Part shown: one piece after another, positions 10,066 to 26,527 of the stretch
How the letters are laid out: every line of letters starts with the position of its first letter
How positions within the stretch are numbered: position 1 is the stretch's first letter
NCBI GenBank assembly: GCA_002049455.2
Contig: KV918939.1
Coordinates: 91,226 to 155,225 of the forward strand
Source of the DNA: Porphyra umbilicalis
Taxonomy: Eukaryota > Rhodophyta > Bangiophyceae > Bangiales > Bangiaceae
Direction: 5' to 3'
DNA: 64,000 bases
Translations under genes and position numbers: made by a program
Notes under the pieces: model-generated
What the model was told of the DNA's origin: nothing
Database searches by the model: none
What the model saw: the letters and a program-made list of their open reading frames with translations, nothing else

Positions 10066-11243
10066 CGCTCACGGCGGGCGCCGTCGCACACGCCACGGCC
10101 GAGGATGGCCGCTGCGGCGTCGCGGGGGGGGGGAGCGCTGGCGCGCGCGGAGCGCGCCGCCGCCGTCTGAGTGGCGGCCGCATAGCCGCCTGTCGACGCA
10201 GGCGCGGCGCGCGGGGCTATCGCGCGGGTGGGGAGCGCCGCCCGCCGCTGCCCGACCGGTCGCCGCGGCCACCTCTGCCGGCGACGGGAGGGGTGACGAC
10301 ACGTGGACGGGCGGAGAAGGAGACCACCAGCACCCAAAGGAGGAGACGGGAGGGAGCATGGAGAAATATACAGGCGTGTCGGGGGCAGGGCTACGGAAAC
10401 AAACTGGGGGCACGCCACGTCCACCAAGAAACACGCCGTCCAACCTCCCCCCTCGCCGAAATACACAGTGGAGCGGATGGTAGTGCAAATCCGGCCATCC
10501 ATTGGTGTAGATTCGTGATTCTGGCCATCTATTGGCCCTTATTCGTGCTGTCAGGTTGACGTTCAATGTGAAGGGCTTCCGAGCCAGATCTGGCACGAAA
10601 ATAACGCGGCGGCTCTCGCGTACAGCGCCCAGGGTTGCAAGTTTACGGTGTACTCATCGGCTGAAGGTTTCATTTCAGTATAATTATAGAAAGGCTGACA
10701 GTGTAGTTTTAGTAAGCATTTATGGAAGACTTATGCCCACCACGTTCCAACATATATAAAACTTCATTCCGACAGTTTCGCCTGGCGATCTACCTCGTCA
10801 CCGGCAATGGCGCGAGCTTACGGTGGCGCTGGGGGCAATGCCAGGCAGCCGTTTCGCGGGGGGGGGAGCTGCAGGCAATACCAGGCAGCCATTTCGCTGG
10901 GGGGGCGGCGCTGCGGGCAGTGCCAGGCAGTCATTTCCCGGGGGGCGGCGGCACTGGCTGTGTCGCCAGAGCGCGTTGTGGCTGGAGCCGAATGTTCAAT
11001 TACAGTATTTAAATGAAACTTTACATGAGTAAATGGAAAGCGACTACCAACACGTGGTGCACACGTTGCATAATTATAGTCTGCCGATTCATGGTTTGCA
11101 TTAATACAGTGAAAATTTCAGGTGTATTAATCCGACTATAATTATCCCCTCTCAACCCTGACAGCGCCCCCCCCCACGGCCGCCGCTCCGAATTGATGCC
11201 AGTAAGGCAATCGGGCCTGCAGTACATGAAATTTAGCCTAGTA
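10066..11243. other. Non-coding region left of the large transposon
   Basis: Contains a 41-bp tandem repeat (10822-10950). An AT-richer part from about 10600 to 11150 contrasts with the GC-rich genome and includes a 12-bp inverted repeat (ATAATTATAGTC near 11068 and GACTATAATTAT near 11132). No supported gene. Confidence 0.45.
10822..10950. repeat. 41-bp tandem repeat, three copies
   Basis: The core CCAGGCAGCCGTTTCGC recurs at 10841, 10881 and 10923 with small changes, each followed by a G run. The period is 40-42 bp. Confidence 0.75.
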
Positions 11244-11267
11244 TGGCGCTTCCCCCTTTTCTGATGG
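11244..11267 (+). repeat. Left terminal inverted repeat (24 bp)
   Basis: A perfect inverted match to 23010-23033, flanked on its outer side by TA at 11242-11243. The match stops precisely at base 25, so this is a short, sharply bounded terminal repeat. Confidence 0.85.
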
Positions 11268-11459
11268 CGATCGCTTTTTTGGTTACAGTGAGGAGGGGTA
11301 GTCGCCTTTTTTTTTTTCTAGCCCAATTGACCAATGGCATGCCTGGAGCGCTGGTCCGCCGTTGACTCAGCAGACAGCTCGAACGCACGAGTTGGTGCAA
11401 GCCTCCATCACCAAATCCGCACACTACAGGACCCGAATCTCCCATTTTCTCGCGCAGTG

Positions 11460-12155
11460 TCGTGCTCGCGCTCGTCCTCGTCGGCGCCGAAACAGTCGCG
11501 ACGTCCTCGTCGGCGGCAACGCGCTGGTGCTGGTGGTGTGCGGCAACGTGCTCGTGTTTGTGTCGGGCCTGTGCGTCGTCCTCGTCGGCAGCAGCGCGCT
11601 GGTGTTGGTGCACGGCAAGGCGCTCGTGCTCGTGTCGGGCTTGTGCGTCGTCCTCTTCGGCGGCGACGCGCTGGTGGTGGTGCACGTCAACGTGCTTGTG
11701 CTCGTGTGTGGCACGGACGGCGTCCACGTCGGGGGCGACGTGCTTGTGCTGGTGGTGCACGGCAAGGTGCTCGTGTTTGTGTCGGGCTTCCGCGTCGTCC
11801 TCGTCGGCGGCGACGCGGTGGTGGTGGTGCACGTGAACGTGCTCGTGCTCGTGTGCGGCACAGACGGCGTCCACGTCGGGGGCGACGTGCTGGTGCTGGT
11901 GGTGCACGGCAAGGTGCTCGTGTTTGTGTCGGGCTTCCGCGTCGTCGTCGTCGGCGGCGACGCGGTGGTGGTGGTGCACGTTAACGTGCTCGTGCTCGTG
12001 TGCGGCACGGACGGCGTCCACGTCGGGGGCGACGTGCTGGTGCTGGTGGTGCACGGCAAGGTGCTCGTGTTTGTGTCGGGCTTGCGCGTCGTCCTCGTCG
12101 GCGGCGACGCGGTGGTGGTTCACGACAACGTGCTCGTGCTCGTGTCGGGCAAGAA
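11460..12155 (+). repeat. 147-bp coding minisatellite
   Basis: The anchor GGCACGGACGGCGTCCACGT recurs at 11710, 11857 and 12004, a constant period of 147 bp (49 codons), with more divergent copies upstream. Because the period is divisible by three, all frames stay open. The plus strand reads as Val/Leu-rich strands such as GDVLVLVVHGKVLVFVSG; the minus strand reads as a His/Asp/Glu-rich repeat such as DDAEARHKHEHLAVHHQHQH. The plus frame is continuous with the transposase. Whether any of it is translated is unknown. Confidence 0.8.
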
Positions 12156-12165
12156 ACGGGGCAGG

Positions 12166-13206
12166 ATGTATGTTCCGGCTCTACGGTATGCAGCATTGGC
12201 GATGGTGCACCACGGGGTTCCGAGGCAAACCATCACGGCTGTTATCGGAGTCCGTTCCGCACAACTTGAGCGGTGGCTAAGGTATTGGAGGAGGAGCGAA
12301 AGCGTGTGGCGAGTTCCAGAGCGGCAAAACCGTCACGAAGACTCCTGTTGGGAGAATGATACGCTGCTGCGAGCGATCATCGCGCTGGTCCAGGAACATC
12401 CACTAGCACTGCTGAAAGAGCACACTGCCATGATGACGGCCATGCGTGCGCTGCCATCGGGGGAGTTTGCTCATTTGCGTGTTTCGAGGAGCACGGTGGA
12501 CCGTGTGCTTCGACGGCTCGGCTTCACTCGGAAGGTCATCATTCGCTTGTATCGAGCGGCCAACCGGGAGCGTCGCCGTGAGCATGCTGTGCTACGTCAG
12601 ATGGACGGTAGCGGCTGCCTCGTATCCGTGGACGAAACCCATACGGACGGCCGTGACGTCCTCCGCAGGTACGGGTGGGCGCTGAGACAAGAGCGTGTTG
12701 ACATGCTCGACATCAGCCCTCGGCACGTCGAGCGCGTGAGCACGACAATGGCGGTGTCGTCAGACGGGCGCATCCTCGGCTTGCACTCGGTCACATGTGA
12801 GCGGGCTCTGACCAGTAACGACTGGCGCCTGTTCTTGGGCCGTGTCATCCAAAAGATGGGCCGGTACACACCTGGGGTCCCTTGGGACCTACAAGCCCCG
12901 GCCTGTGTCTTGCTTTTTGACAATGCGCCAATCCACGACGCTGCTGGCGACGCCTTCTTGGAGAACAATGGCATCCCGTTCATCCGTCTACCCCCCTACT
13001 CTCCCGACTTGCAGCCCATCGAGGGTGTGTTCAACGACTTGAAAGTCATCGTTCGGAACCTGGTGTACTTCAACCCTCACTTCCTCGAAGACGGCGTTCG
13101 TTTGCAGGCGCTGGCGGCAAGCCTCATCACGCGACGACAGATAGTAGGGCAGTTTTCTAGAGTCGAAGTCAAACTGGCGCGTGTAGCGACCGGGCAGTGC
13201 TTCTAA
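12166..13206 (+). CDS. IS630/Tc1-mariner-type DDE transposase
   Basis: Cuts and rejoins DNA at terminal repeats. From ATG 12166 the protein has an N-terminal helix-turn-helix (ALAMVHHGVPRQTITAVIGV), a second HTH-like segment (RVSRSTVDRVLRRLGFTRKV), then the DDE catalytic domain: D in LVSVDETHTDGRDVLRRYGW (Asp codon 12631), D in LLFDNAPIHDA (12919) and E in PPYSPDLQPIEGVFNDLK (13021), with 33 residues between the last two. DExH…R..GWA and SPDLxPIE are hallmark motifs of the superfamily. All three catalytic residues are present and the frame is uninterrupted to TAA at 13204, so it may be active. The open frame extends upstream to 11362 through the minisatellite; 12166 is chosen because conserved sequence begins there. 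It sits about 0.9 kb inside the left end of the large element. Confidence 0.9.
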   Translation: MYVPALRYAALAMVHHGVPRQTITAVIGVRSAQLERWLRYWRRSESVWRVPERQNRHEDSCWENDTLLRAIIALVQEHPLALLKEHTAMMTAMRALPSGEFAHLRVSRSTVDRVLRRLGFTRKVIIRLYRAANRERRREHAVLRQMDGSGCLVSVDETHTDGRDVLRRYGWALRQERVDMLDISPRHVERVSTTMAVSSDGRILGLHSVTCERALTSNDWRLFLGRVIQKMGRYTPGVPWDLQAPACVLLFDNAPIHDAAGDAFLENNGIPFIRLPPYSPDLQPIEGVFNDLKVIVRNLVYFNPHFLEDGVRLQALAASLITRRQIVGQFSRVEVKLARVATGQCF

Positions 13207-14734
13207 AGCTGATGACATCCTCCAAACTGGGATGACCTCGTCGAAACAGAAACGCAGACACCTCATGCACACGAACACGTCCTGTCAGGCGCGTCTTGGA
13301 TGTGAAACCAATGCAGAATAGGGTGAGCCAGCGGATGCCTCTGGCACAAAAGCGGTACGGGTGGCGGCGCACTCCACCATTCCCGAGTATGACTGCCCTG
13401 CAGCGTCTCCCGCCGGGCGCCTGCGAAGGAAATAGTGGTTGCCTTGTGCGACGCAACAGGTGCTCCCGGCGAAGCCTGCCATCTGAGACTTCGCCAAGGA
13501 GCTGCCGACGGTGGTGGGCGGAGCCTGCTGATGCATGCGAAAAACTTACATATGGCACTCTTTCGGAATAGAAATTCCCGCACCATCGACGCCGAAGCTT
13601 CGACTCGAAAGTCGAGTTTATTTCAACTCTTTGATATCGGTCAACGAAGAAGCTTATTCGAGATTGGTAGAAGTCGACGCTATCGGGATCCGTCGACAAC
13701 ATCTCTGCGTCCTTCGTTGCTGAAGGCAGCTTGAAGAGACATCGCTACATCATTTGGGCACCAGTGTCTTTGCATGGTACACAGTCGGTGCTTCTTTCAG
13801 CTAGAAAAGGGACAGGACGCAGGATAAGCTGCAGTGCTGGCCATGTGGTGGCCGGTGCATCGGCAACTGGCCAGTGAGGTGCTTAGGAGCCGTTGTAGTG
13901 CATGTTCGTGTCCTTCAGATGAACATGACCAACATGCTTTGGTTACATTGGCCGCGGAGACGAGGGATTACTCCCATGTCAGTGCCACGGTGACCTTTTC
14001 TGCTTCTCCTTGTAGAGGAGGTTCAGAGCGCGGGGTGGCTCTGATGCGCACCACATTGGTGGCCCTCTAGGTTTCCATCACCCGAGAGGTCCCGGACATG
14101 GCAGCCCGGTCTGATGTTCGCTGCATTAGAAACGCGCGCCGTGCCAGCAGATATAATCGCTGCTCTAAGGTGTTCGTGTGTCTCTGGAAGCATAAATCTA
14201 GTTGGTGGAGCGGGTCGAGCGTGGCGCCGTGGGGGTCTGTGCAAACGCTATGACTCTGCCCGATGTTCGAAGCACCATCCGAGGTCCAGTGGCAGGAGAT
14301 GCGCGCGCGACGCGCGGCGCGCCGCAAGGACTCTGGCAGCGTAGTAGTGACAGCGGAGCGCGGACTCCTGCCACAGATGCACCTCGGCAGTGAGACACTA
14401 TAATAACTTCGTGACCTGAGCGCAGGGCAGGCACAGCGGGGTTGCCATCTCACAGCTGAGCGGCTGCCACCGAGTGCAAGCGAGTGCGTCAGCATTGCAA
14501 CACAAACCACGACGCACGTACTGCCAGACAGTAAATACAACAGCTACGCCTTGCAATACTTGTCTCAGACGCTTCTCATTGGTCCACGCCCCTATCTCGC
14601 AGAACACTCGGTCGCGGCATTGACGCGATTTGAGGAATCTATCGACGAAGTAATGAGGTCATGTCACCCACTGAGGTGCCTCGGGGGGAACCGGTCAGCT
14701 GTCGGCATCTCATGCTGACATCTCGCTGCGGTGG
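13207..14734. other. Non-coding spacer inside the large transposon
   Basis: No protein family recognised on either strand. It separates the transposase from the E(z) gene and likely holds the latter's promoter. GC content is moderate, and small inverted repeats (for example CGACTCGAAAGTCG near 13602) are the only structure seen. Confidence 0.45.
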
Positions 14735-17722
14735 ATGCCGTCTCGCCTCACCACCATGGCGGCATTGCGCTGCGCCCCCGAGGACAACTTTGTGGAGGAT
14801 TGGCCCAACGAGGAGGGGCCTTTGTCAGATGTGGACGCCGATGATGAAGCCGCAGACCTTGCGGCTGCCGCTGCTGGCGACAATGTTATCCTGAAGCGCG
14901 TCATCCTTCGAATTTATGGACGAGCGGGGCGCCGCGCTCGCCAGCGCCGTCGCGCCGAAGGTCGCATCGCCATTGCTGTGAATCGTGCCGCGGCTACGCG
15001 CTACTTCCGTACCGCGGCGGCGGTGCCTGTTGGAGTTGGCTCCCGTCCCATTGAGCAATCGCCCACATCGTCTGCCGTGCCCGTGCGCGGTGCTGCCCCC
15101 CTCGACGACATTGGTCGCTACGCTGTTGCTCCCGGTAATGCCCTGGCGTCAACAAGCGGCATTGGTGCAAGTGACTCTCGCGAGGACCTGTTGAGAAGGG
15201 GGGAGCTGGTTGGCGGAAGCCCTTGTGAGAAGAGCGGCCGCAGGAAAGAGGGACGTGTCGTGCAGCCCGACGACGGGGGGAGACGCGTTTCCCGCGAGGG
15301 TCAACGAACGATGTTTGATTACATGCGCTCCTCGCGGCAAGCGCGGGCGGCGCGGACGGGTGCTGCGTCGCTGCCAGATGCGTGTGTGCACGAAAGAGGC
15401 ACTGCGGACGCCTCTAGGCACGGCCATCCCGTCTTGTCCGCGACAGCTCCGCAGAGTGGCTCGGTGACGCCATCTTTCTCTTCCGCAGCCGTGGAAGACG
15501 GTGTCCACGTAACGGTTTTGCCAGCAGCTGAGCGCCTCCCATCGGTGACGGCGTACACGTCATTGCGGCGGTCGTGGCGAAGGGTTGAGGGCGTGACTCC
15601 CGTCAAGTTCACTCCTTATCTGGGCCCTTCTGACGAGGCGCACGCGACGGCGGCAAAGATTATGTGCAAGAACGGGTGGGTGCCCCCCGAGTGGAACAGT
15701 GACGGGAGCGACGCGTCTGACCCGGACACTTATCATCACGACAATCAATACCGATCGCTCTCGTCGCAAACGCTTCGGCTGGCGCAGCGCGCGGGCGTGG
15801 CAGCTGTCGTCGATGCCTTGGGCGAGTCATCTGTGGTGGTGAGCGCCATGAGCAGCGCGTTAGGCGAGACCATCCCGTTCCTAACTCACGTCATCCACCT
15901 CATCCATCGCAGAGCGGCGGACCACCGTCGGGCTCATGCGCATCGAGCGGCGCACGCCACTCGCCGATCCGCGATCGAGCGCTTGACGGGCGGTGCGAGC
16001 CTCGCCGTCGTTCTCGGAGCTGGAGCTGTGAGGGAACAAGTCGTGTGTCCGCCGGCGGGTGAGTGTGTCCTTGAAGTCGGCGGCCTGGTGCATGAACATG
16101 ATCGAGCTGGTACAGCCACGGCTGTTGCATGCGCTGTGGCGGCAACGGCAGCTGGATCGGACGCGCTGGCTGCGGGACTTCCCCCCGCGAGTCGCGCTTG
16201 GGCAGCGCAGAACGCCGCACTTGTGAGAGGGTCGCACGCCGACAGCGACGCCCTGCGGGCCGATGCTGCTGCCTTGCGGTCCGTTCACGCTGTCCTCCGT
16301 GCTCCCGACGGCCCAAACAAGGCCACTCTCCTGCCGTGTATGGGCACTCTTTTCTCTGCAGACCATGTGGAGGAGCACGCCGGCGCTGACGCTCCCGACT
16401 CTCGGTCGGTGTCCAACTCGTACGCGTCACGGAGAGACGTCTTCATGCGTCTTTTGTGCCGAACGTGCCTGCGCTACGCTTGTCGCATCCACCGGATGCC
16501 CACGGTGGAGCCGTCGTCAACCGATTCACACGCCCTCGCGGACGCGGACCTGGCTGAAAGCCTCGTCCCCGGTGTGAGGAGCGGCTCTAAGAACACTGCC
16601 TCAGGAGGCGCCCTGCCACCTCCTCTGCCACTTCGCGGCTGCGTGGGCGTCGACGCGGCTGTTGCTGTCGCCCCGGTGGCGAAACACCCCGGGCACGTGC
16701 CACCTACTGTCAATGACGGTGAGGGCGAGGGTGCCGGCTCAGCATCTGATCATTCTTCCTCTGTTCCGGCGCGTTTGCCGGCAGAGTCGGTGTCGGCCGC
16801 ACCAAGCACGTCTGTCAACGTGCTAGACGCAGAGCCTGGGGGTCTATCACTCGGGGAGTTCCACGCGGCGTCTTCCACGCTCCGCGAGCGAGCTCGCCAT
16901 GGCAGGCTGCTCAGCGACAGTGGCAGTGAGGCGGAAGGTGTCGGGGCGGGCAGCGCTCTGTCTGCTGCTGTTCGTGATGGCCTGTATCGTGGCAGTAAGG
17001 GACTTCCAGCTGCAGCTGCCAACCTCAGTGGCGGTAGCAGTGGTGTTTTGGACCTGTTACGTGGAGGTCTGGACAGCCTTTCTGTCCATGACGGGGTCGA
17101 GGAGGTGCCTGACAGCGATGTACCCGTATGCTCACGCCCCTCTACTCTGGATGCTCGCCGCGGACGTCACGCAAGGAACCTGCATGCTGCCATTGCCTCG
17201 GCAGCCAGCGGGTGCCTCGAGTGTTGCCACGATGCCCGCGTGAAGGCTGCGATGACATATGAGAAGCCCACCATCGGTGGCTGGAGTGAAGGCCAGGTGG
17301 CGCTTCTTCATCTTGGTGCGGACATTTTTGGGGCAGACGACACCTGCCGCCTCGCCAGGTTTGTGCGTGGCAAGACGTGTCGCGGCATTGCTGACTTCAT
17401 TTTAACGGGAGGGTGGAATGGGAGGGACGTGTCACTCCCGCAGCCCCCTGATCAAGATGTTGATGTGGAGGCCCCTGCACGTGTTTGCCGCGCGCCCGTG
17501 GCAGCTCCCGGGGCCGCGGATGCGCACGTTTTGCAGCTGCCAGACTCGTCGCAGGCCTCGCCGCCGTTGTCGCTGGGCGAGTTGTCGTCATCTGGGAGAA
17601 TTGCGAACGCCAGCAGTCAGGAGGACCCCGACGCGCCTGAGGAGGTGCACGACTTTGTGCCGTGCTTCCACATTGGTGCGTGCACCGTGGAGCGCTGCAG
17701 ATGCGCAAAGGCCAACCTTTAG
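14735..17722 (+). CDS. E(z): Enhancer-of-zeste-like protein, N-terminal 995 residues up to an in-frame TAG
   Basis: E(z) is the catalytic subunit of Polycomb repressive complex 2, which methylates histone H3 Lys27 in chromatin. This part starts at ATG 14735 (a second ATG follows at 14756). Features in order: a basic Arg-rich stretch (about 60-85); a conserved-looking segment TPVKFTPYLGPSDEAH (about 288); the pre-CXC signature RDVFMRLLCRTCLRYACRIH (about 566-585), matching the 'LFCRRCFxYDCxxH' of E(z); a SANT-type domain GWSEGQVALLHLGADIF…RGKTCRGIADFIL (about 848-890); and the first CXC cysteines in CFHIGACTVERCRC just before TAG 17720. The TAG is in the same frame as the downstream SET part, so the two are one gene. 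Long low-complexity linkers make it larger than animal E(z) (about 750 residues). It lies inside the TA-flanked transposon. Confidence 0.82.
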   Translation: MPSRLTTMAALRCAPEDNFVEDWPNEEGPLSDVDADDEAADLAAAAAGDNVILKRVILRIYGRAGRRARQRRRAEGRIAIAVNRAAATRYFRTAAAVPVGVGSRPIEQSPTSSAVPVRGAAPLDDIGRYAVAPGNALASTSGIGASDSREDLLRRGELVGGSPCEKSGRRKEGRVVQPDDGGRRVSREGQRTMFDYMRSSRQARAARTGAASLPDACVHERGTADASRHGHPVLSATAPQSGSVTPSFSSAAVEDGVHVTVLPAAERLPSVTAYTSLRRSWRRVEGVTPVKFTPYLGPSDEAHATAAKIMCKNGWVPPEWNSDGSDASDPDTYHHDNQYRSLSSQTLRLAQRAGVAAVVDALGESSVVVSAMSSALGETIPFLTHVIHLIHRRAADHRRAHAHRAAHATRRSAIERLTGGASLAVVLGAGAVREQVVCPPAGECVLEVGGLVHEHDRAGTATAVACAVAATAAGSDALAAGLPPASRAWAAQNAALVRGSHADSDALRADAAALRSVHAVLRAPDGPNKATLLPCMGTLFSADHVEEHAGADAPDSRSVSNSYASRRDVFMRLLCRTCLRYACRIHRMPTVEPSSTDSHALADADLAESLVPGVRSGSKNTASGGALPPPLPLRGCVGVDAAVAVAPVAKHPGHVPPTVNDGEGEGAGSASDHSSSVPARLPAESVSAAPSTSVNVLDAEPGGLSLGEFHAASSTLRERARHGRLLSDSGSEAEGVGAGSALSAAVRDGLYRGSKGLPAAAANLSGGSSGVLDLLRGGLDSLSVHDGVEEVPDSDVPVCSRPSTLDARRGRHARNLHAAIASAASGCLECCHDARVKAAMTYEKPTIGGWSEGQVALLHLGADIFGADDTCRLARFVRGKTCRGIADFILTGGWNGRDVSLPQPPDQDVDVEAPARVCRAPVAAPGAADAHVLQLPDSSQASPPLSLGELSSSGRIANASSQEDPDAPEEVHDFVPCFHIGACTVERCRCAKANL

Positions 17723-18526
17723 TGTGAGAGGTCATGCTGGTGTGCTCGTGGTTTTTTGAAAGAAGCAGGGGGGCCGGCGTCGTCCGGCGGCACCGCGTCG
17801 GCGCTCATCGAGGCCACACCCGCGTCGGAGTCGCGGCTCTGCGACCGCCGTACGCGGTGCGCATGCGTGCCGCCGTCCCGGTGCGCGACGGACGAGTGCC
17901 CGTGCTTCGGCGTCGACAGGGAGTGCGACCCCGACGCTTGTGTCACGTGCGGTGCACACTGGCACCCAGACACTGGTGTCGACGGGCTGCCATCACCATC
18001 CGGTCATCCTCGCTCACGTGGTGGTGTGCCGCCTCTGCGTGGTGCTGGGCTCGTCACTGCAGCCGACGTAGCGAGCGGCGGCGTCGCTGCTGGAGAAGTG
18101 GCCGGACGGCGTCGCTGCCGGAATGTTCAGCTACAGATCGGTGCCCGAGTACGTTGCGTGCTTGGTCGCTCAGGAGCACACGGCTTTGGGGTCTTCGCTG
18201 CGGAGCCGGCGGCTGCCGGGGATTTCGTCGGTGAGTATGTCGGCGAGCTGGTTTCCAATGAGGAGGCACGTGCGCGGGGCCGCGTCTACGACGCTATGGG
18301 CGTCAGCTTCCTGTACTCCATCACGAAGACTGTTAACATCGATGCAAAGTACATGGGAAACCGGACGAAGTTCATCAATCACCGCGGAAAGGAGCTCGCC
18401 AACGTTGAGGCGAAGCTGCTTAACGTAAGCGGTGAAATCAGAGTGGGATTGTTCGCCAAGACGTCGGTGACTCCTGGGGAGGAGCTCTTCTTCGATTACG
18501 GCTATGATGTGCCGGGGTGGGTGTGA
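17723..18526 (+). CDS. E(z): E(z)-like CXC and SET domains, downstream of the in-frame TAG
   Basis: Directly in frame after TAG 17720-17722 the sequence reads CERSCWC (E(z): CEKFCQC), then after an insert of about 30 residues CDRRTRCACVPPSRCATDEC and RECDPDACVTCG, the second half of the CXC zinc cluster. The SET domain follows: GFGVFAAEPAAAGDFVGEYV, SFLYSITKTVNIDAKYMGNR, KFINHRGKE and GEELFFDYGYD, ending at TGA 18524. The substrate-pocket NH of 'NHS' and the GEELFFDY motif are kept, but NHS is NHR and the usual Cys of NHSC is absent. Without readthrough, a revertant copy or correction of the TAG, the methyltransferase domain would not be joined to the rest. An internal ATG at 17756 exists but would lose CXC cysteines. 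Confidence 0.82.
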   Translation, partial: CERSCWCARGFLKEAGGPASSGGTASALIEATPASESRLCDRRTRCACVPPSRCATDECPCFGVDRECDPDACVTCGAHWHPDTGVDGLPSPSGHPRSRGGVPPLRGAGLVTAADVASGGVAAGEVAGRRRCRNVQLQIGARVRCVLGRSGAHGFGVFAAEPAAAGDFVGEYVGELVSNEEARARGRVYDAMGVSFLYSITKTVNIDAKYMGNRTKFINHRGKELANVEAKLLNVSGEIRVGLFAKTSVTPGEELFFDYGYDVPGWV

Positions 18527-19250
18527 GGACCCACTCGCCATCAAAGACGGCGCGGCGGCCGGCCGCGTCGCCGACGACGTGCTCGGGTTGTTTTGGGACA
18601 AGGTCACGCACGGTGCGCGTGTCCTCGGTGGCGGCGACGAGGCCGTGGTGGTCTCGGCTCAAGGGCGAGCGCTCGTCTGCCTCAACGAACACGCCGTCGC
18701 CGAGACCGAACTGGACAATGTGGCGCGCAGCAAAAAGCGCCTGCTGGTGCTCGTGCTCCTGTACGGCAGCGAGGTCGCCGTCGTGAGCGGGGACATGCTT
18801 GCGGTGATGGTGCACGACGCGCGCGCGTTGGGGGGCGTGGACAAGGTCGCAGTCGTGAACAAGGTTGCGGTAGCTGTCGTGAACAACGCCGCGGTCATGC
18901 CTTCCTCGCGGGCGTTCGTTGGGTTCGTGGCGCGTGACGGTTTGTGACAGCCATGTCATCCTCGTCGGCATCGAGTGTTGTCGTGTTGGTAGAGTCATCG
19001 AGTGTTGTCGTGTTGGTGTAGGTAACGGTTCTCATACTTGTGCCTGGCAACGAGGTTGTTGTTGTCGGCGGCGTCGCAGTGGTACTGGTGGAAAGCAAAG
19101 GAGTTTTACTCTGACTGCTGGAAGGGGTAGCTGCGTGGTGGACCAGGCAGTCAATGGGCCGTCGGCTCTTTTGAAGGGTGCAAGCGACGGAAACAACTAG
19201 AGATGATATTTCTTCTCGCGCGCATCTGAAGCACATACAGCAGAGCAGTC
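18527..19250. repeat. Degenerate V-x-V / Thr-rich coding-like repeat island
   Basis: From about 18570 to 18905 the plus strand reads as Val-rich strand-like peptide (LLVLVLLYGSEVAVVSGDML, VDKVAVVNKVAVAVVNNAAV) like the 147-bp minisatellite. A 26-bp unit containing ATCGAGTGTTGTCGTGTTGG is duplicated at about 18968-19018. The minus strand at 19000-19110 reads TTATPPTTTTSLPGTS. No independent gene is supported. Confidence 0.5.
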
Positions 19251-20406
19251 AAGTACCACTGTAAATGACAGCAAGGGAAAGTGAGAGTCCTACCGAGCCA
19301 CGCGCTTGCCCTTTCCTTTGTAGGCGTTGAACACATGAGCGATGAAGTCTTCAGCAGTGGAGTCCTGGCAGAGGCACACCCGACACTCAAACCAAACACA
19401 AGCCCCGAGCGGGACCACCACGGCGTGAGGGGCGTGCAGCGACTGCGGGGCACCGCACGCCGCGGCCACGCGGCCACGCGTGCCACAGTGCGTGTGCGGT
19501 CATTGTGCCCACAGAAGAGCGGCGTAGAGCTCGACGCGCCACCGCTACCGGTGCAGGCAATAACTTGCCCCACGTCACGATGATGAACGTCATTGCCGTC
19601 GCGGGCATGAACCTCGCAACAGACGGAGGCTCGCGCCACGCCCTCACAATCCCGTCAGTCAATACACGCGCCACAGTTTGCCCTTCTACGACTGCCAGCT
19701 GCGGACCACGTCAAGCCAGAGGAAAACCTTTCGTACGGAGTGGGATTTCAGATGCCTGGCGATGAAAGTGTTTGGCAGTGTCAACTATTGTTCAATATCG
19801 TTCGATGACATGCATCCTCGTGGTGCTGATGGCTCTGCCTTCGATCAACTGTTTTGGAAGGCTCTGTGGACATTGAAAGTGTTTCAAGAGACATGGCCTC
19901 TCCGTGCAGTGTGCGCCATGACCGGAAAAAGATCCCACCTTGACAGCTAATCTCGAAGTGTTTGATGTGACATTTGGTATTGTCCGACGGGCAGTGAGGG
20001 ACTTACGCGAATATGACCCAGTGTGCTTTTGGAATCGATCGACTTGGGACAGAGAGCACGTGTGGTGACCATCGACTTGGAGCATCCCCGCAGCAGCTGT
20101 GGTGCTGCCTCTTCCTTCTCGTGCCGATGAGACTTGCAGGCCCGTTAGGCGCGGGAGTCGCGTGGTGCCTGTGTCTCTCTGTCTATCATGCGGGCGTGTC
20201 CCTAGATCCCACAGGCGGTGGTGGTTTTGAGGTTGCTACGGGGCACTTGTTGCTGACTCCGTATGCCATCGACCGTGGTCGTACGCACGTCGTGCCTGAA
20301 GTGCACTCGCTGTCGCCGAGCTTTGTCGGGTGCACGAGTGGGTGGTGGAACAAGTGAGACACGAGGTCACCCAAACTAGCTGTGTATTCTAAAGAGTCAA
20401 CCACCG
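19251..20406. other. Spacer inside the large transposon; one weak candidate frame
   Basis: Mostly non-coding. A frame at 19678-19950 (+) reads VNYCSISFDDMHPRGADGSA and QLFWKALWTLKVFQETWPLR, which is protein-like in composition but matches no family I recognise. It could be a remnant of another cargo gene. Confidence 0.35.
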
Positions 20407-21879
20407 TCAAACGTGGGGTGGAACCTCGTCTACGTCAAAGGGTCCTTCTCCATCGGGACTATCGTCTCCACTACCGTTCACGCTGCTGGAACCACCCAAA
20501 ACGTCACCGGGCCGCGACCGCTTGCGGGAGGGCCCTGCGTCCGCCACTGACACGACCGCGTCCTTGTGCATGTTCACCATCCAGACAGCAAGCATCATCA
20601 ACAAGTTCGTATGCGGCTTCTGCAGCCGCGTCGAGCACAACTGCTCAGCGAAGCGCGCCGGCGTCACGACACCGCACGTGAGCATTACACCCAGCAGCAT
20701 GTTGTTATGAGCGCCATCGATGAAGTCCGCTTTCACCTCCGGCAACTTGGACGCCATGGCGTCGCCAAGAGAGCCCTTGTGCGCCGCCACTGCCAGCTCT
20801 TCGGATGTCATGCTGCTGAGCGAGGGCAGCTCGAATGCACCGAGGGACTCTTCGAAACGCTGGCGCTCGCCGGGTGGCCACGCAAAGGGGCTCGCCGGTG
20901 CGTCGGACAACCGCGTCGCACTACCCGAGCCCGCGCCCGCAGTCGCGTTGGCAGTTCTTGACCCTGTCCGAGTCGAAACAGACCCCGTCAATGAGAGGCG
21001 TCGAGCGGTGTCGAGGCCGGCTTGCGCCATTGACAAGTTGTTGGCGCCAAAGAGCGTCTGTGCGCTTACGACGGAGCTCCCTCGCGACGCATGCCCGCCG
21101 CGTGACGGCGGCGTCGCCTGACGTCCTGACGGTCGTCCGTCACCGGCAGCGGCGGCCGCAGTAGCAGACGGCGCGGCCCGAGCCGCTGCTCGAACGGCAC
21201 CCGCCACGCCCTGCGCCGAGGGTACGCCCACCAACCGTCCCGTCGAAGAAGCAGCGCCCACCACCGACGAACGCGGCGAACCGACGTACACACCGCAAGC
21301 ACCCAAGGCTGCGTCCACAGCCGAAACCTTCGGGTCTTCCAGGAGACGCGAAGACTCGTTGAAATGCGTGCGGTTAGATGGGTCCAGAGTAGCGGCCTTC
21401 ATGCCCATCTCCTCCATCCGAGCCACGCTCGCCGCTGGGTCCATTCCCGACTGCGCCGCGTTGCCGACCAGCTCCTCCGCCGCACCAGCCAAGCGAGTAG
21501 ACTCGTCTAACTTCTTCTTGTAGTGGGCGATGGCGGCAATGCGAAAGCCCTCGGCGTGTGCGTCGAGAATCAGGCTACATACGTAGTCCGTGCCGCACAA
21601 TGGCGGCGCGCTCTCCTTCCGCAGAATACTGCCACCAGTGCCGCTGCGGTAGTGCGTGCCGTTGACTGCGAGTGTCCGGTTTGAATGCCCCACGATGTCG
21701 CAAGATGGGCACTTCTCCTTACAAACGCACGCCAAGTCAGTACAATGTGTGGCATGGCGCTTGAAGGGATTACCGACGGGCAGCGTACGGCGACAAGGGA
21801 GTTTGCGCAGGTCACAAGACACCTGGCCATGACCGGTCTTGCCCTTTGAGTCGAAACCGCACAGGAGGCACCGAGTCAT
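20407..21879 (-). CDS. Unrecognised Cys-rich, nuclear-type protein of the large transposon
   Basis: From ATG 21879 the frame encodes about 490 residues (open upstream to 22008). The N-terminus carries a dense Cys/His cluster: RCLLCGFDSKGKTGHG, SCDLRKLPC, HATHCTDLACVCKEKCPSC, DIVGHS, arranged as a plausible multi-zinc module. A central Ala/Ser/Gly-rich linker follows, then a more ordered C-terminal part (FEESLGAFELPSLSSMTSEE; MLLGVMLTCGVVTPARFAEQ) and a basic GPSRKRSRPGDV patch that looks like a nuclear localisation signal before an acidic tail. It is convergent with the E(z) gene on the same element. A DNA-binding accessory or regulatory protein is plausible but is only inferred from the cysteine cluster and basic patch. 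The family is unknown to me. Confidence 0.65.
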   Translation of the reverse strand: MTRCLLCGFDSKGKTGHGQVSCDLRKLPCRRTLPVGNPFKRHATHCTDLACVCKEKCPSCDIVGHSNRTLAVNGTHYRSGTGGSILRKESAPPLCGTDYVCSLILDAHAEGFRIAAIAHYKKKLDESTRLAGAAEELVGNAAQSGMDPAASVARMEEMGMKAATLDPSNRTHFNESSRLLEDPKVSAVDAALGACGVYVGSPRSSVVGAASSTGRLVGVPSAQGVAGAVRAAARAAPSATAAAAAGDGRPSGRQATPPSRGGHASRGSSVVSAQTLFGANNLSMAQAGLDTARRLSLTGSVSTRTGSRTANATAGAGSGSATRLSDAPASPFAWPPGERQRFEESLGAFELPSLSSMTSEELAVAAHKGSLGDAMASKLPEVKADFIDGAHNNMLLGVMLTCGVVTPARFAEQLCSTRLQKPHTNLLMMLAVWMVNMHKDAVVSVADAGPSRKRSRPGDVLGGSSSVNGSGDDSPDGEGPFDVDEVPPHV

Positions 21880-21959
21880 GGTGTGTGCGACCCCCACTTC
21901 AAGCAGAGCACGCACGCGCTGAGGGAGACAGCACGATTGATTGGCCGACCGCAGCCGCG

Positions 21960-22330
21960 TGCTCAACGAAGGGTTCCTTGCCACCCACGACGACGACAAC
22001 GTTGCCACCGACGGGCACGAGCTCCTTATCGCTCACGCCGATGACGACCACGAGCACGGGGACGAGCAGAAGAAGGGGAACGAGGAAGAGCACAAAGAAG
22101 AGCACGAGGAAGAGGACGAGGAAGAGCACGAGGAAGAGCACGAGGAAGAGCACAAGGAAGAGCACAAGGAAGAGCACGACGACGAGCGCACGCACGAGCG
22201 CCGCGCCGTACACAGCGACCGCCACCTCGTTGCCAAGGACGACGATCGCCTTGCGCCTTACGGCCGACCGAAACGAGCCCAAGCGCGAGCACGACGACGA
22301 GCGCACGCACGAGCGCCACGAGAACAAGCT
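21960..22330. repeat. 12-bp purine-rich tandem repeat and flanking Thr/Val-rich island
   Basis: Copies of GAGGAAGAGCAC repeat about nine times from 22083 to 22186, giving EEHEEEHKEEH on one frame, TRKSTRKS on another and VLFLVLFLVL on the minus strand. The adjoining 21965-22060 reads LPPTTTTTLPPTGTSS on plus and LVPVGGNVVVVVGGKEPFVE on minus, echoing the 19.0-kb island in inverted orientation. Confidence 0.7.
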
Positions 22331-23009
22331 GGGAAGTGAAGTGCCTGCAAGGCGACTTCACGAAAAAGAGCGCGTATGACAACAGACCCCTGGTGCAGCC
22401 CTGCTGCTCGTCGCGAGACGCGGTGGAGGGGCGTCCTGCAAGAACACCCCCCGTCTGAGGCATCCGCACAGGACCGGTCTGCTGACCGTGGCGGGCGACG
22501 GGAGAACTGCCCGGCTGCAGCGATCCACACAGGTGGGGGCAAGAGCCGTCGCTGAGGAATGACCTCCTTGCCCGAACGTTCCGGGGTGCCAGATGCCCAA
22601 TGAGGGCGTTCAGGTCAGCACAGAAACGAGGAGGCCATGTGAGCTTCTGAGCTTTTTTTCGGATGAGGCCCCAATTGAGCACACATTGCAGGACGTCGGT
22701 TTAGCAGCACCTGCCTCTGGAACACCGCAGGGGGATGCGTGAAAAAAATCCGAGTACCGACTAGGGAAGAACTAAGCTTATTTCAGATGGCGGTTGACAG
22801 CGGCTCTCAGCGCACCCCAAATTGAAGCACCGGACCCCCAGAGTCGCTCCAATCGGCGCATTTTCTCGTGACTGGCTCAAAAATTAAATACTTTGCCACA
22901 CGAGTGCAGCAAAAAGCTGCAGAAGCCCAGCCCAGAGCGTCTCCGATCGCCCCCCGCTGGCCTCCTGGGAGGGGTAAACAAAAAACTGGTGCCAGAAGCT
23001 CAAGGTGTC
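22331..23009. other. Non-coding right arm of the large transposon
   Basis: No coding potential recognised. Composition is moderate in GC. This is the subterminal region leading to the right end. Confidence 0.5.
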
Positions 23010-23033
23010 CCATCAGAAAAGGGGGAAGCGCCA
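23010..23033 (-). repeat. Right terminal inverted repeat (24 bp)
   Basis: A perfect inverted copy of 11244-11267, bordered outside by TA at 23034-23035. Confidence 0.85.
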
Positions 23034-23609
23034 TACGCGTGTTAGTACACGTCTAGAATGCGCCCCACTTTCCGGACGATGTTGTTCGAACAACATCACC
23101 TTTTCTCACACAGAACAGTTCCATCAACAGGTTGAAAGAAGCTTCGCTACGAGCCCACCGTCTCCACTGTTCATGACGGATGAAAAATTGTATCGCGATA
23201 CAATATCTTCTCGGCCATCCAGCTTTTGTTCGCAGAACAGTTTTCGTAGGCCAGGTGTAATGCGCAGAGCTCCTGAACCCACCAACTCGGCGTTTGGCCG
23301 GGCGTAGGCGGTGGACCACCGGGGCTGTGGCACGCGCACGCGGCCGCGGCGCCGCGCCACGGCGGCGCCACCACGGAGACGGCGTGCGGCCGCGACGCAC
23401 GTGCCGCCCAACGGCCGCGCGGCCGACGCTGGCCTCGGCGCGCGCCGCCCCCTGCCTCCCCGAGGGTGGCCGACGACAAGACACTGTCGGAAAAAGTCCC
23501 CCGCGCCTCCCCCGCTGCTGCCCTGGACGCGCGGTCCCGCGTCCCCCCCCTCCCCCCCCGGGCCGTCCTCATCCCCGCCCCCCCCCCCCCCCCCCCCCGG
23601 CCAGACACG
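23034..23609. other. Intergenic region with two perfect palindromes and a C21 run
   Basis: Palindromes: 23078-23097 (GATGTTGTTC/GAACAACATC) and 23187-23204 (ATTGTATCG/CGATACAAT). A run of 21 C at 23578-23598 ends 11 nt from the VPS33 stop; on the sense strand of that gene it is a G run in the 3' flank. Confidence 0.6.
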
Positions 23610-24172
23610 TTACGCCCACGCGGCCTCCGCCTCCGCGTCGACGAGCTGCTCGATGAAGGCGTCCCCCCCCATCATGGCCGTCGTCAGCAGCAGCACCCGC
23701 CGCCCCGACGCCGCGGCCGCCGCGCGCACACCCGACGCTTCCGCCCGCGCGAGGCCCCCCACGTACAAGACGAGGGCGTCAAAGGCGGGGGCCGCCGCCG
23801 CGGGCGCGGCGGGCGCCCCAGCGGCGGGGGTGGGGGCGGGGGCGGGGGCGGGGGCGGGGGCGGGGGCGGCGCCCCCCCCCCCCACCGCCGCCCCCACCCG
23901 GTGCTCGAGCGTCACGTGCCCCGGCGGCAAAATGGCCGTGTGCGCCGACACGGGCGGCAGCGCCGCCCACCCCGCCGGGGACAGCGCCGCGTCGACGAGG
24001 CGCACGGAGAGTGGGGTGTAGCCCGAGTAGGGGGCGGCGAGGCGGCGCTCGCGGCGCCGCGCGGCGGCGCGGCGGCGGGTCCCCGCGTCGGGCGGCGGCG
24101 GCGGCGGCGGCGGGCCGCCCCGCCGCCGCCCGCCACCGCCGCCCCGCCGCGACCAGCCGTCGCCGTCGGTCG

Positions 24173-24207
<35 letters not shown>

Positions 24208-24341
24208 CCGTCGCCATCCCCATCGTCCGGGTCGTAGGGGGAGACGAGGCGCAGCGCGGCGCGGGCAAACTGCCACGAGTAGGGCGCGTCGGCATCGCCG
24301 CCGTCGGCGTCCCACTCCCCGCCGCCGCCGTCGGCGCCACG

Positions 24342-24376
<35 letters not shown>

Positions 24377-26527
24377 GGCCGTCGGCGCTCCCGCCACCGC
24401 CACCGCCACTGCCGCCGCCGCCGCCGCCGCCGCCGCTGCCGCCGCCGGCGCGCCCCCCATTCATGGCCGACGCGCGGCCGCGGCCGCCCTTGCCGTCGCT
24501 CCCCCCCGACGCGACGGAGCGGCGGCCATCCCCCCCGTCGCGGGGGTCCCCCCCCCCCCCCCCCCCCCTGGGGCACGCCCGCCAAACTCCCCGCCGCGTC
24601 GGCCAAACTCCCCGCCGCGTGGAGGACGGTGGACCAGGAGACGAGCCCCCCCACCCCCCCCTCCCGCACGGCGGGGACGCACAGGCGCGCGCGCTCCGCC
24701 GCCGCCAGCAGCGGCAGCGCCGCCGTCCCCGCCGCCGCGAGCAGCTCGCCGCGCACGCCCGCCAGCGCCTCTGCCTCCACCCCCCCGCCCGTGAGGGAAA
24801 AGAGGCACAGGAGGCGCGTTAGGCGGGGGAGGGGCACCCCCGACGCGGCCGCGTCGCCGAGCGCCGCGGGCCGCCGCCGCGACGACGACGAGCCGTCGAG
24901 CGCCGACCGCTCCGCCGCGGACCACGCCGCAAACGCGGGGTCGGCAAACGTCAAGGCCGACACGGCGCCCGCAATGGCCGTGTGGGCGGCCACCGCCGCG
25001 CCCGACGTGGCCAGGGCGGGGAGGCCCCGCACAAAGGCGGCGACGCGGGAGAGGTCCCCGCCGCTCCCGTGCCACTCCCCGTCGCCGCCGCCGTTGGCGT
25101 CATCCTCATACGCGCGGCCGCGGCCGCCGCCGCGGCTGCTGCTGCCGCGGCCGCCGCCGCCGCCGCCGCCGCCGGCGTCGGCGGCGGCGGCGGCGCCCCC
25201 CCCCCGCCCGGGCGGGCGGCGTACCGCGCGCGCACTTGCGCGGCGGTCACCGCCAGCCGCCGCGCGGCGGCCGTGTAGTTCAAGTCGCGGAGGCCCGCAA
25301 ACACCGCATCGTCGGTCGTGAGCAGCCGCCGCACGGGGGCGTGCGGCGGCGGCCCTGGGCGGCGGCCGCCGCCACCCGCCTCGGGCGGGGGCGTCAGGTC
25401 GGCCCCGACGCCCGGCGGCGGGGGCGCCCCCCCGCCCGCCGCCGGGTCCCCCTCCCCGCGCACCGCCGCCGCGTCGGGCGGGGAGAGGACCCCGGCGGGC
25501 ACCTCGAGCACCGCGTTGCTCATGCCGAGCGCCTCCTCCGCGAGGCCCTCGTACGTCCACTGGGTGAGGAGGGGGGTCACCAGGTCCACCGCCCGGTCAA
25601 TGACAATCAGCGTGACGGGGCGGGGGGGCGGGGGGGGGGGGGGCACCCCTCGGCGGCCGTCGACGCGCCCCCGTCGCCGCCGCTGCCCGCCGCCGCCCAC
25701 GGCGGCACCAGCCCCCCGAGCACCGCCAACGACAGGTCATTGACGGAGCGGGCGGGCGGGCGGTCTGCGGGGGCCACCCCCACCCCCCCCCCCACCCCCC
25801 CCCCCCCCCCCCCGCGCCGTCTGGGTGGTCCGCAAGCAGCGCCGCCACGACCGCCGCCGCCGCCGCGCCCGCGGTGCGGATCAAGTCAAAGCGCAGGCGG
25901 CCCGCCGCGCGGAGCGCCGCGAGCGCCGCCGCGGAGGCGGCGAGGGCGGAGCGGTCCCCCTCCAGCGCCGCCTCCCGAAAGGCGCCCGGCCAGTCGAGGG
26001 ACCCCACGTCCGCGTCGAGGGGGAGGAACCCCAACCGCAGCGGCGCAACCGCCACGCACGCCCCCACGCCGGCGGCCGCGAGCGCCCGCTCAACAACCCC
26101 CGACGGGCGGGGGAGGACGAGGACCGTGGCGCGAAAGGCCAGCGGGGGGGGGGCGCCGCCCGCCGCCGCACCCGCCGCGGGGGCGCCGTCTGCTGCCCCC
26201 CCCCACGGCCACCCCCCCTGCCGCGCGTCGGCACGGGTGCGCTCCCCCCCCCCCCGCCGCCCCCGCCGTCCCCCCCCCCCGCCGCCGCTGCCGCGGCGGT
26301 CGCCGCCGCCCACCGCGCGCGCGCGTCGGCAATCACCGCCGCCGCCGCGGCCGCCGAGTGTTCCCGCCCCGCGCGCACCACAAACACCAAACTCCCCGCG
26401 TACGCCGGGGTGGCCGACGACGGCCGGTGCGGGGACAGCGGGCCGTCGGTAGACGGGCGGCTCCGCCCACGGCGGCGCGGGAAGGTGGCCGCCGACGCAG
26501 CGTCACCGCCACCGCCACCGCCGCCGC

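Follow-up and report, generated by a model that had tools for sequence, protein, structure and literature searches.

A giant IS630/Tc1-mariner-type transposon with an E(z)-family histone methyltransferase gene in the genome of Porphyra umbilicalis

DNA transposons with chromatin- or DNA-modifying enzymes as cargo have been described before. TET-positive DNA transposons of fungi pass their cargo between transposon lineages (Kojima 2025, PMC12730594), and the same paper cites HarbingerS and MuDR transposons of Phytophthora that possess a SET histone methyltransferase (Kojima and Jurka 2014). In a 64,000-nucleotide stretch of DNA from the red alga Porphyra umbilicalis (assembly GCA_002049455.2, contig KV918939.1, positions 91,226 to 155,225; hereafter the window) we describe an 11.8-kb element, at positions 11244-23033, which encloses a transposase of the IS630/Tc1-mariner type, a gene for E(z), the catalytic subunit of Polycomb repressive complex 2 (PRC2), and a gene for a Cys-rich protein.

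Our preferred reading, to which we assign a probability of roughly 0.55, is that the element belongs to a giant IS630/Tc1-mariner family in which transposase, E(z) and Cys-rich gene form the mobile unit, and that the element E(z), together with ESC of the host, would give the transposon copies a Polycomb-type state.

The insertion and its empty sites

The genome searched comprises 83.8 Mb in 665 contigs, the window being part of contig C179. An earlier note on this DNA had claimed perfect 24-bp inverted ends with TA on the outside, and this was borne out: complementarity between the arms 11241-11267 and 23010-23036 is 100%, and the terminal repeat itself measures 24 bp.

11244..11267 (+): left 24-bp terminal inverted repeat, with the TA target-site dinucleotide at 11242-11243; six elements have this identical 24-mer at each end
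23010..23033 (-): right 24-bp terminal inverted repeat, with TA at 23034-23035

The note had also proposed searching the genome for further ends and for empty sites, and both were found. The 24-bp end, with up to three mismatches allowed, gave 20 matches in the whole genome as against none for a reversed-pattern control. Among these are six correctly oriented pairs, spaced 11.8 (window), 12.1, 18.4, 21.8, 22.0 and 25.5 kb, with TA outside both ends in all six; eight matches (C14, C253, C61, C144, C433, C19, C128 and C251) had no partner in this first search, C19 being paired later.

For the empty sites, the flanks of an element were joined with one TA and searched against the genome. For the joined flanks of the window, 40 of 160 candidates were scored and 40 matches resulted, of which 38 cross the junction uninterrupted at 94-98% identity over about 122 bp, and the remaining two are the window's own flanks. 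With the 25.5-kb element of C41 there were 43 matches (40 of 410 candidates scored), 40 of them spanning nearly all 298 bases at 96-97% and three partial. The C50 element yielded 11, the junction being crossed by three near-full (84-92%) and five weaker (69-70%) matches, while two were its own flanks and one stopped short. The empty sites at the window, C41 and C50 indicate that each of these elements is one mobile unit which duplicated TA, and 11244-23033 is thus a single bounded insertion of a TA-duplicating element. The flanks 11167-11243 and 23034-23084 make up a dispersed repeat of about 122 bp that is split by the element and occurs uninterrupted at 38 or more other places in the genome.

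Tc1/mariner elements are usually 1-3 kb long and carry a transposase only, and on this ground the two ends might be ascribed to unrelated short elements flanking a host locus, or to a chimeric assembly. The empty sites of three insertions refute this reading and rule out two short elements each with its own partner end. Moreover, ten elements with all three genes sit at ten places; the right flanks of C41 and C138 differ (the left flank, a dispersed repeat, is common to both), and the flanks of C57 and C86 differ on both sides, each with TA. We consider this explanation extremely improbable. The terminal inverted repeats and TA duplication are those of IS630/Tc1-mariner elements; the short transposase-only format, which is typical but not defining, is replaced here by lengths of 11.8-27 kb with cargo.

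The three genes and the selection on them

The remaining features of the element are as follows.

12166..13206 (+): IS630/Tc1-mariner-type DDE transposase; Pfam DDE_3 9.6e-17; catalytic D, D and E codons at 12631, 12919 and 13021; start codon inferred
14735..18526 (+): E(z)-family histone methyltransferase gene; its frame is interrupted within the CXC region by a single TAG, at 17720-17722
16388..16498 (+): MCSS-like Cys cluster of E(z); PF21358 0.0048, below cut-off; aligned with EZH2 in the copy of C41
17654..17956 (+): CXC region, made up of a pre-CXC half, the TAG and a preSET_CXC half, the latter matching PF18264 at 1e-6
18182..18502 (+): SET domain; PF00856 5e-18; NH motif kept in 25 of the 25 copies compared
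20407..21879 (-): Cys-rich companion protein of about 490 amino acids; start placed as in P0118; N terminus CCHC-like on inspection
11497..12150 (no strand): subterminal tandem array with a 72/147-bp period, about nine copies of the 72-bp unit
22052..22187 (no strand): right subterminal 12-bp tandem array

The E(z) gene had been described as full-length with pre-CXC, SANT, CXC and SET regions. This is correct for its extent and incorrect for an intact frame, in view of the TAG; CXC (1e-6) and SET (5e-18) are recognized in the window copy itself, and for the SANT2-like and pre-CXC stretches the alignment with EZH2 used not that copy but the one of C41 and a profile of 13 relatives (drawn from records of ENA and JGI and probably contigs of metagenomes). 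The C50 element, 98.97% identical to the window over 11.5 kb, has an open E(z) frame of 1283 amino acids; the copy of C138 is also split. With the 13-relative profile, human EZH2 is the best solved relative, at 3.5e-56 over MCSS, SANT2, CXC and SET, the best SET protein outside E(z) scoring 1.6e-22. Upstream of CXC the profile aligns MCSS and SANT2 to EZH2 262-537 (i-Evalue 3e-9), and in the window, the C41 copy and the profile alike CXC is followed by a SET domain closest to EZH1/2 among solved SET proteins. The element E(z) is quite probably a working lysine methyltransferase, and may methylate H3K27.

The transposase retains the three catalytic residues attributed to it earlier, at D159, D255 and E289 of the stretch translated from 12157, with 33 residues between the second D and E; it is of the DDE_3/IS630 and not of the Harbinger type. 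The sole named relative among 82 matches is from Pyropia yezoensis (52% identical). An open frame running through the left array into the transposase is probably fortuitous. A common subterminal motif as a protein-binding site was considered and rejected: the one array motif tested is enriched at the left end in C179 and C50 only, with few right-end copies in C21, C115 and C138.

No Pfam family matched the Cys-rich protein. A relative is found in a EukProt transcript set (P0132), which indicates transcription somewhere. A fourth gene between E(z) and the Cys-rich gene was rejected, the two spacer blocks tested showing no coding-like frame (ratios 0.57-1.14), and the six spacer open reading frames (ORFs) of the C41 element gave no Pfam match. 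The C41 element also contains a nested insert of about 3.5 kb with an 869-amino-acid ORF (L026:4205-6811, -) weakly matching DUF1280 (5.6e-5, just under the curated cut-off). Beyond the right end of the element, window positions 23779-25700 (-) hold pieces of a Sec1-family gene, the frames of which abound in Gly, Arg and Ala.

Ratios of nonsynonymous to synonymous substitution rates (dN/dS) show purifying selection on the transposon E(z), the transposase and the Cys-rich gene. For CXC-SET, ten of 13 comparisons have dS above 0.1, and among these dN/dS is 0.13-0.24 in nine and 0.34 in C249/C73; the three recent pairs (dS up to 0.03) lie at 0.40-0.60. Constraint is less strict in the N-terminal part of E(z), with 0.37-0.38 for C50 versus C21 and C41. 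Values for the transposase are 0.05-0.11 in seven of the eight comparisons with dS above 0.05 (C449/C31, 0.35), C50/C57 being saturated at dS 3.0 and C50/C19 not computable, and the Cys-rich gene of C50 gives 0.15-0.16 against C21 and C41. These figures bear on the idea that E(z) was captured a single time and rides along with no advantage for the element. Broken copies (the window TAG, C144, C14 and others) and a short end-paired derivative without E(z), at C19, agree with it; the low dN/dS in nine of ten diverged comparisons, the re-association of E(z) with different transposases and the Su(z)12 linkage described below speak against it, so that we disfavour it as very unlikely.

Copies, lineages and PRC2 subunits in the genome

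The CXC-SET piece has 114 matches in the genome (112 of 112 candidates scored), the transposase at least 116 (116 of 385) and the Cys-rich protein at least 109 (82 of 253), the latter two being lower bounds because part of the candidates were scored. Merging gave 92 SET and 115 transposase loci, counts that may include duplicated or haplotype contigs; the SET loci also include non-transposon genes, namely a likely host E(z) at C76, a SET1-like gene at C352 and a few weak ones. A transposase lies within 30 kb of 68 of the 92 SET loci and within 10 kb of 45, the rough chance per locus being 8% and 3%, and the Cys-rich gene within 40 kb of 58, distances which denote element boundaries in the end-paired copies only. 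The proximity of transposase and SET loci directly supports the suggestion that such elements are the route by which E(z) paralogs spread. Gene order and orientation form several repeating arrangements. When the transposase loci, scored down to 40%, are sorted by identity to that of the window, a SET locus lies within 30 kb of 63 of the 90 at 47% or more and of none of the 25 at 40-47%.

A second end family provides four further pairs, C57, C86, C33 and C23, of 20.5-27.2 kb with matches to the three genes, some with stops; C113 and C117 show one end each. Ten of the 11 end pairs found (11.8-27 kb) enclose matches to transposase, E(z) and Cys-rich gene, not all intact. The eleventh, the 3.7-kb pair of C19, holds the transposase and part of the Cys-rich gene and has no E(z) match. 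At C268:21900-30400 (L083) a transposase and a Cys-rich gene are separated by a 665-amino-acid ORF without Pfam match, and the E(z) search gave no match at C268; these two genes thus look like the older core. The stretch examined of the C482/C313 family consists largely of tandem repeats and does not reach the ends.

Trees were built from 25 of the 92 SET and 26 of the 115 transposase loci. The E(z) tree unites the window family with the C482 family (97/98), the transposase tree with the C57 family (100/100); joining window and C57 families is rejected on E(z) (p 0.00017) and joining window and C482 families on the transposase (p 6e-12), the conflict having been noted beforehand from pairwise identities and the exact test groups fixed after the trees were seen. 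This conflict shows that E(z) has been re-paired with different transposases. In a wider tree all 21 sampled transposon-type E(z)s, 11 from this genome and 10 of the 13 relatives, form one clade (100/100), apart from the likely host gene C76 as the earlier note had envisaged. C76 falls outside on a very long branch of unsure placement, its position as sister of the transposon clade being neither shown nor rejected (p 0.37), and none of the scored transposase loci is on its contig. The possibility that the window E(z) is the single-copy host gene is ruled out by this separate likely host E(z) and by the clade of its own.

Su(z)12, a second core subunit of PRC2, has a Cys2-His2 zinc finger upstream of its VEFS box. 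A search for the latter yielded 26 loci that pass the cut-off of the family, against none in 14 control genomes. In 24 of the 26 a SET/E(z) locus lies within 30 kb (0.7-22.7 kb), the exceptions being C6 and C478, so that part of the lineages carry two core subunits of PRC2. A VEFS box lies inside each of the four end-paired elements of the C57 family, and in the E(z) tree it accompanies eight of nine loci on one side and none of 16 on the other, the window side; this deepest split is itself weak (66/48), and the single miss, C449, is on a short contig. The translated VEFS boxes of C184 (1.3e-12) and C57 (8.4e-11) are 50% and 45% identical to that of C6, which is taken as the host gene for the sole reason that no E(z) is near. 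The best solved relative is SUZ12, a weak match (E 0.013). A hidden VEFS box in the window lineage was rejected, the weak matches downstream of E(z) looking repeat-encoded. The locus at C478:12126-12476 (-) lies on a contig with no SET locus and has a 970-amino-acid open frame.

For ESC/EED, searched with a human query, good matches were found at C20 and C527 only, five others being weak and of the WD-repeat type. The two loci are C20:216857-218265, about 20 kb from a transposon E(z), and C527:8913-9836. With good matches at only two places, ESC is probably supplied by the host, and use of host ESC by the element E(z) seems somewhat favoured. An alternative is an anti-silencing decoy: the element E(z), joined by Su(z)12 where present, would compete for ESC/EED of the host or for histone tails, and would in this way weaken the silencing of transposons by host PRC2. 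Good ESC matches do not accompany the repeated E(z) loci, PRC2 is reported to repress transposons in several eukaryotes (PMC10638273, PMC9018016), and fungal transposons with TET/JBP dioxygenases are thought to be aided by them in escaping silencing (PMC12730594). Purifying selection on CXC-SET and the kept NH motif, however, exceed the needs of a pure decoy, and we rate this explanation as possible but rather unlikely.

A Polycomb-type state and the known systems

Under the preferred reading of a giant E(z)-bearing family, the element-encoded E(z) would join host ESC/EED and a host or element-encoded Su(z)12, and would be recruited to the copies of the transposon, possibly through binding of the Cys-rich protein to the subterminal arrays. 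The copies would thereby gain a Polycomb-type chromatin state that may hold down damage and copy numbers, or fend off more severe silencing, and from which the element could reactivate. The window copy is a recent insertion with its own E(z) broken, and would hence depend on E(z) from other copies. That E(z) acts on the element's own chromatin is about evenly balanced in our estimation.

Several points weigh against this scheme. Tethering of E(z) to element DNA by the Cys-rich protein is a guess, and a doubtful one; the window's own E(z) holds a nonsense codon, and no Su(z)12 is detectable in the window lineage. In the window and C482 families NH is followed by Arg instead of Ser, six of 25 copies have an altered FFDYGY motif, and the position that we take to be that of EZH2 Tyr641 is not Tyr, so that activity or product specificity may differ. 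Recent pairs, over all genes, have dN/dS of 0.40-2.31 on few changes (window versus C50, 0.52-1.35), which suggests that copies decay after insertion; taken with the low values of diverged copies, this is the picture given by genes that are required while an element spreads and can decay once it has inserted.

A trans-acting enzyme need not act in cis, and E(z) might instead work mainly on host genes or steer integration to Polycomb chromatin; the domesticated transposases ALP1/ALP2 of Arabidopsis are tied to PRC2 (PMC8788455). Against such a role, no such targeting signal was found and the three tested insertions lie in repeated sequence, and we think it improbable. A portable PRC2 is a tentative proposal, somewhat less likely than not: element E(z), plus Su(z)12 in one part of the family, would form with host ESC a private complex marking transposon chromatin, the module having entered once and then moved between transposase lineages. 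If this is true, mobile elements and Polycomb have traded parts both ways.

Transposons here carry the catalytic subunit of PRC2, and some of them two core subunits, as selected and exchangeable cargo. Whether mobile elements govern, mimic or disable the machinery by which they are silenced thus becomes a question open to experiment. Such cargo also accounts for the way in which a single genome can come to hold dozens of E(z)-like genes, and what is counted as E(z) in genomes of this kind may belong to transposons.

Giant eukaryotic transposons (PMC6431247) are reportedly large DNA elements, as is this one, the entry listed for them mentioning no PRC2 cargo. Like the host PRC2 of E(z), Su(z)12 and ESC, the system described here has the same core subunits by family; unlike it, E(z) and VEFS are multi-copy and mobile, with good ESC matches at two loci only. 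The TET-positive transposons of fungi are similar in that several lineages bear a chromatin- or DNA-modifying enzyme and have exchanged this cargo; they differ in enzyme (a TET/JBP dioxygenase) and host, and IS630/Tc1-mariner is not among the superfamilies of the abstract (PMC12730594). HarbingerS and MuDR also encode a SET methyltransferase, in other transposase superfamilies and another host; the comparison is with their description in the same paper, where the portion concerning them mentions no Su(z)12. In SETMAR/Metnase of primates a mariner transposase and a SET methyltransferase have likewise been brought together, as a single fused host gene that is not mobile and whose SET domain, in the part of the source dealing with it, is not described as E(z)-type (PMC9062482). 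Among the top matches listed in the open literature searched, we found no description of an IS630/Tc1-mariner element with E(z) or Su(z)12. Chromatin-enzyme cargo and SET-bearing transposons are thus already known; what is new is that giant IS630/mariner elements carry an E(z) of the PRC2 type, whether accompanied by Su(z)12 or not.

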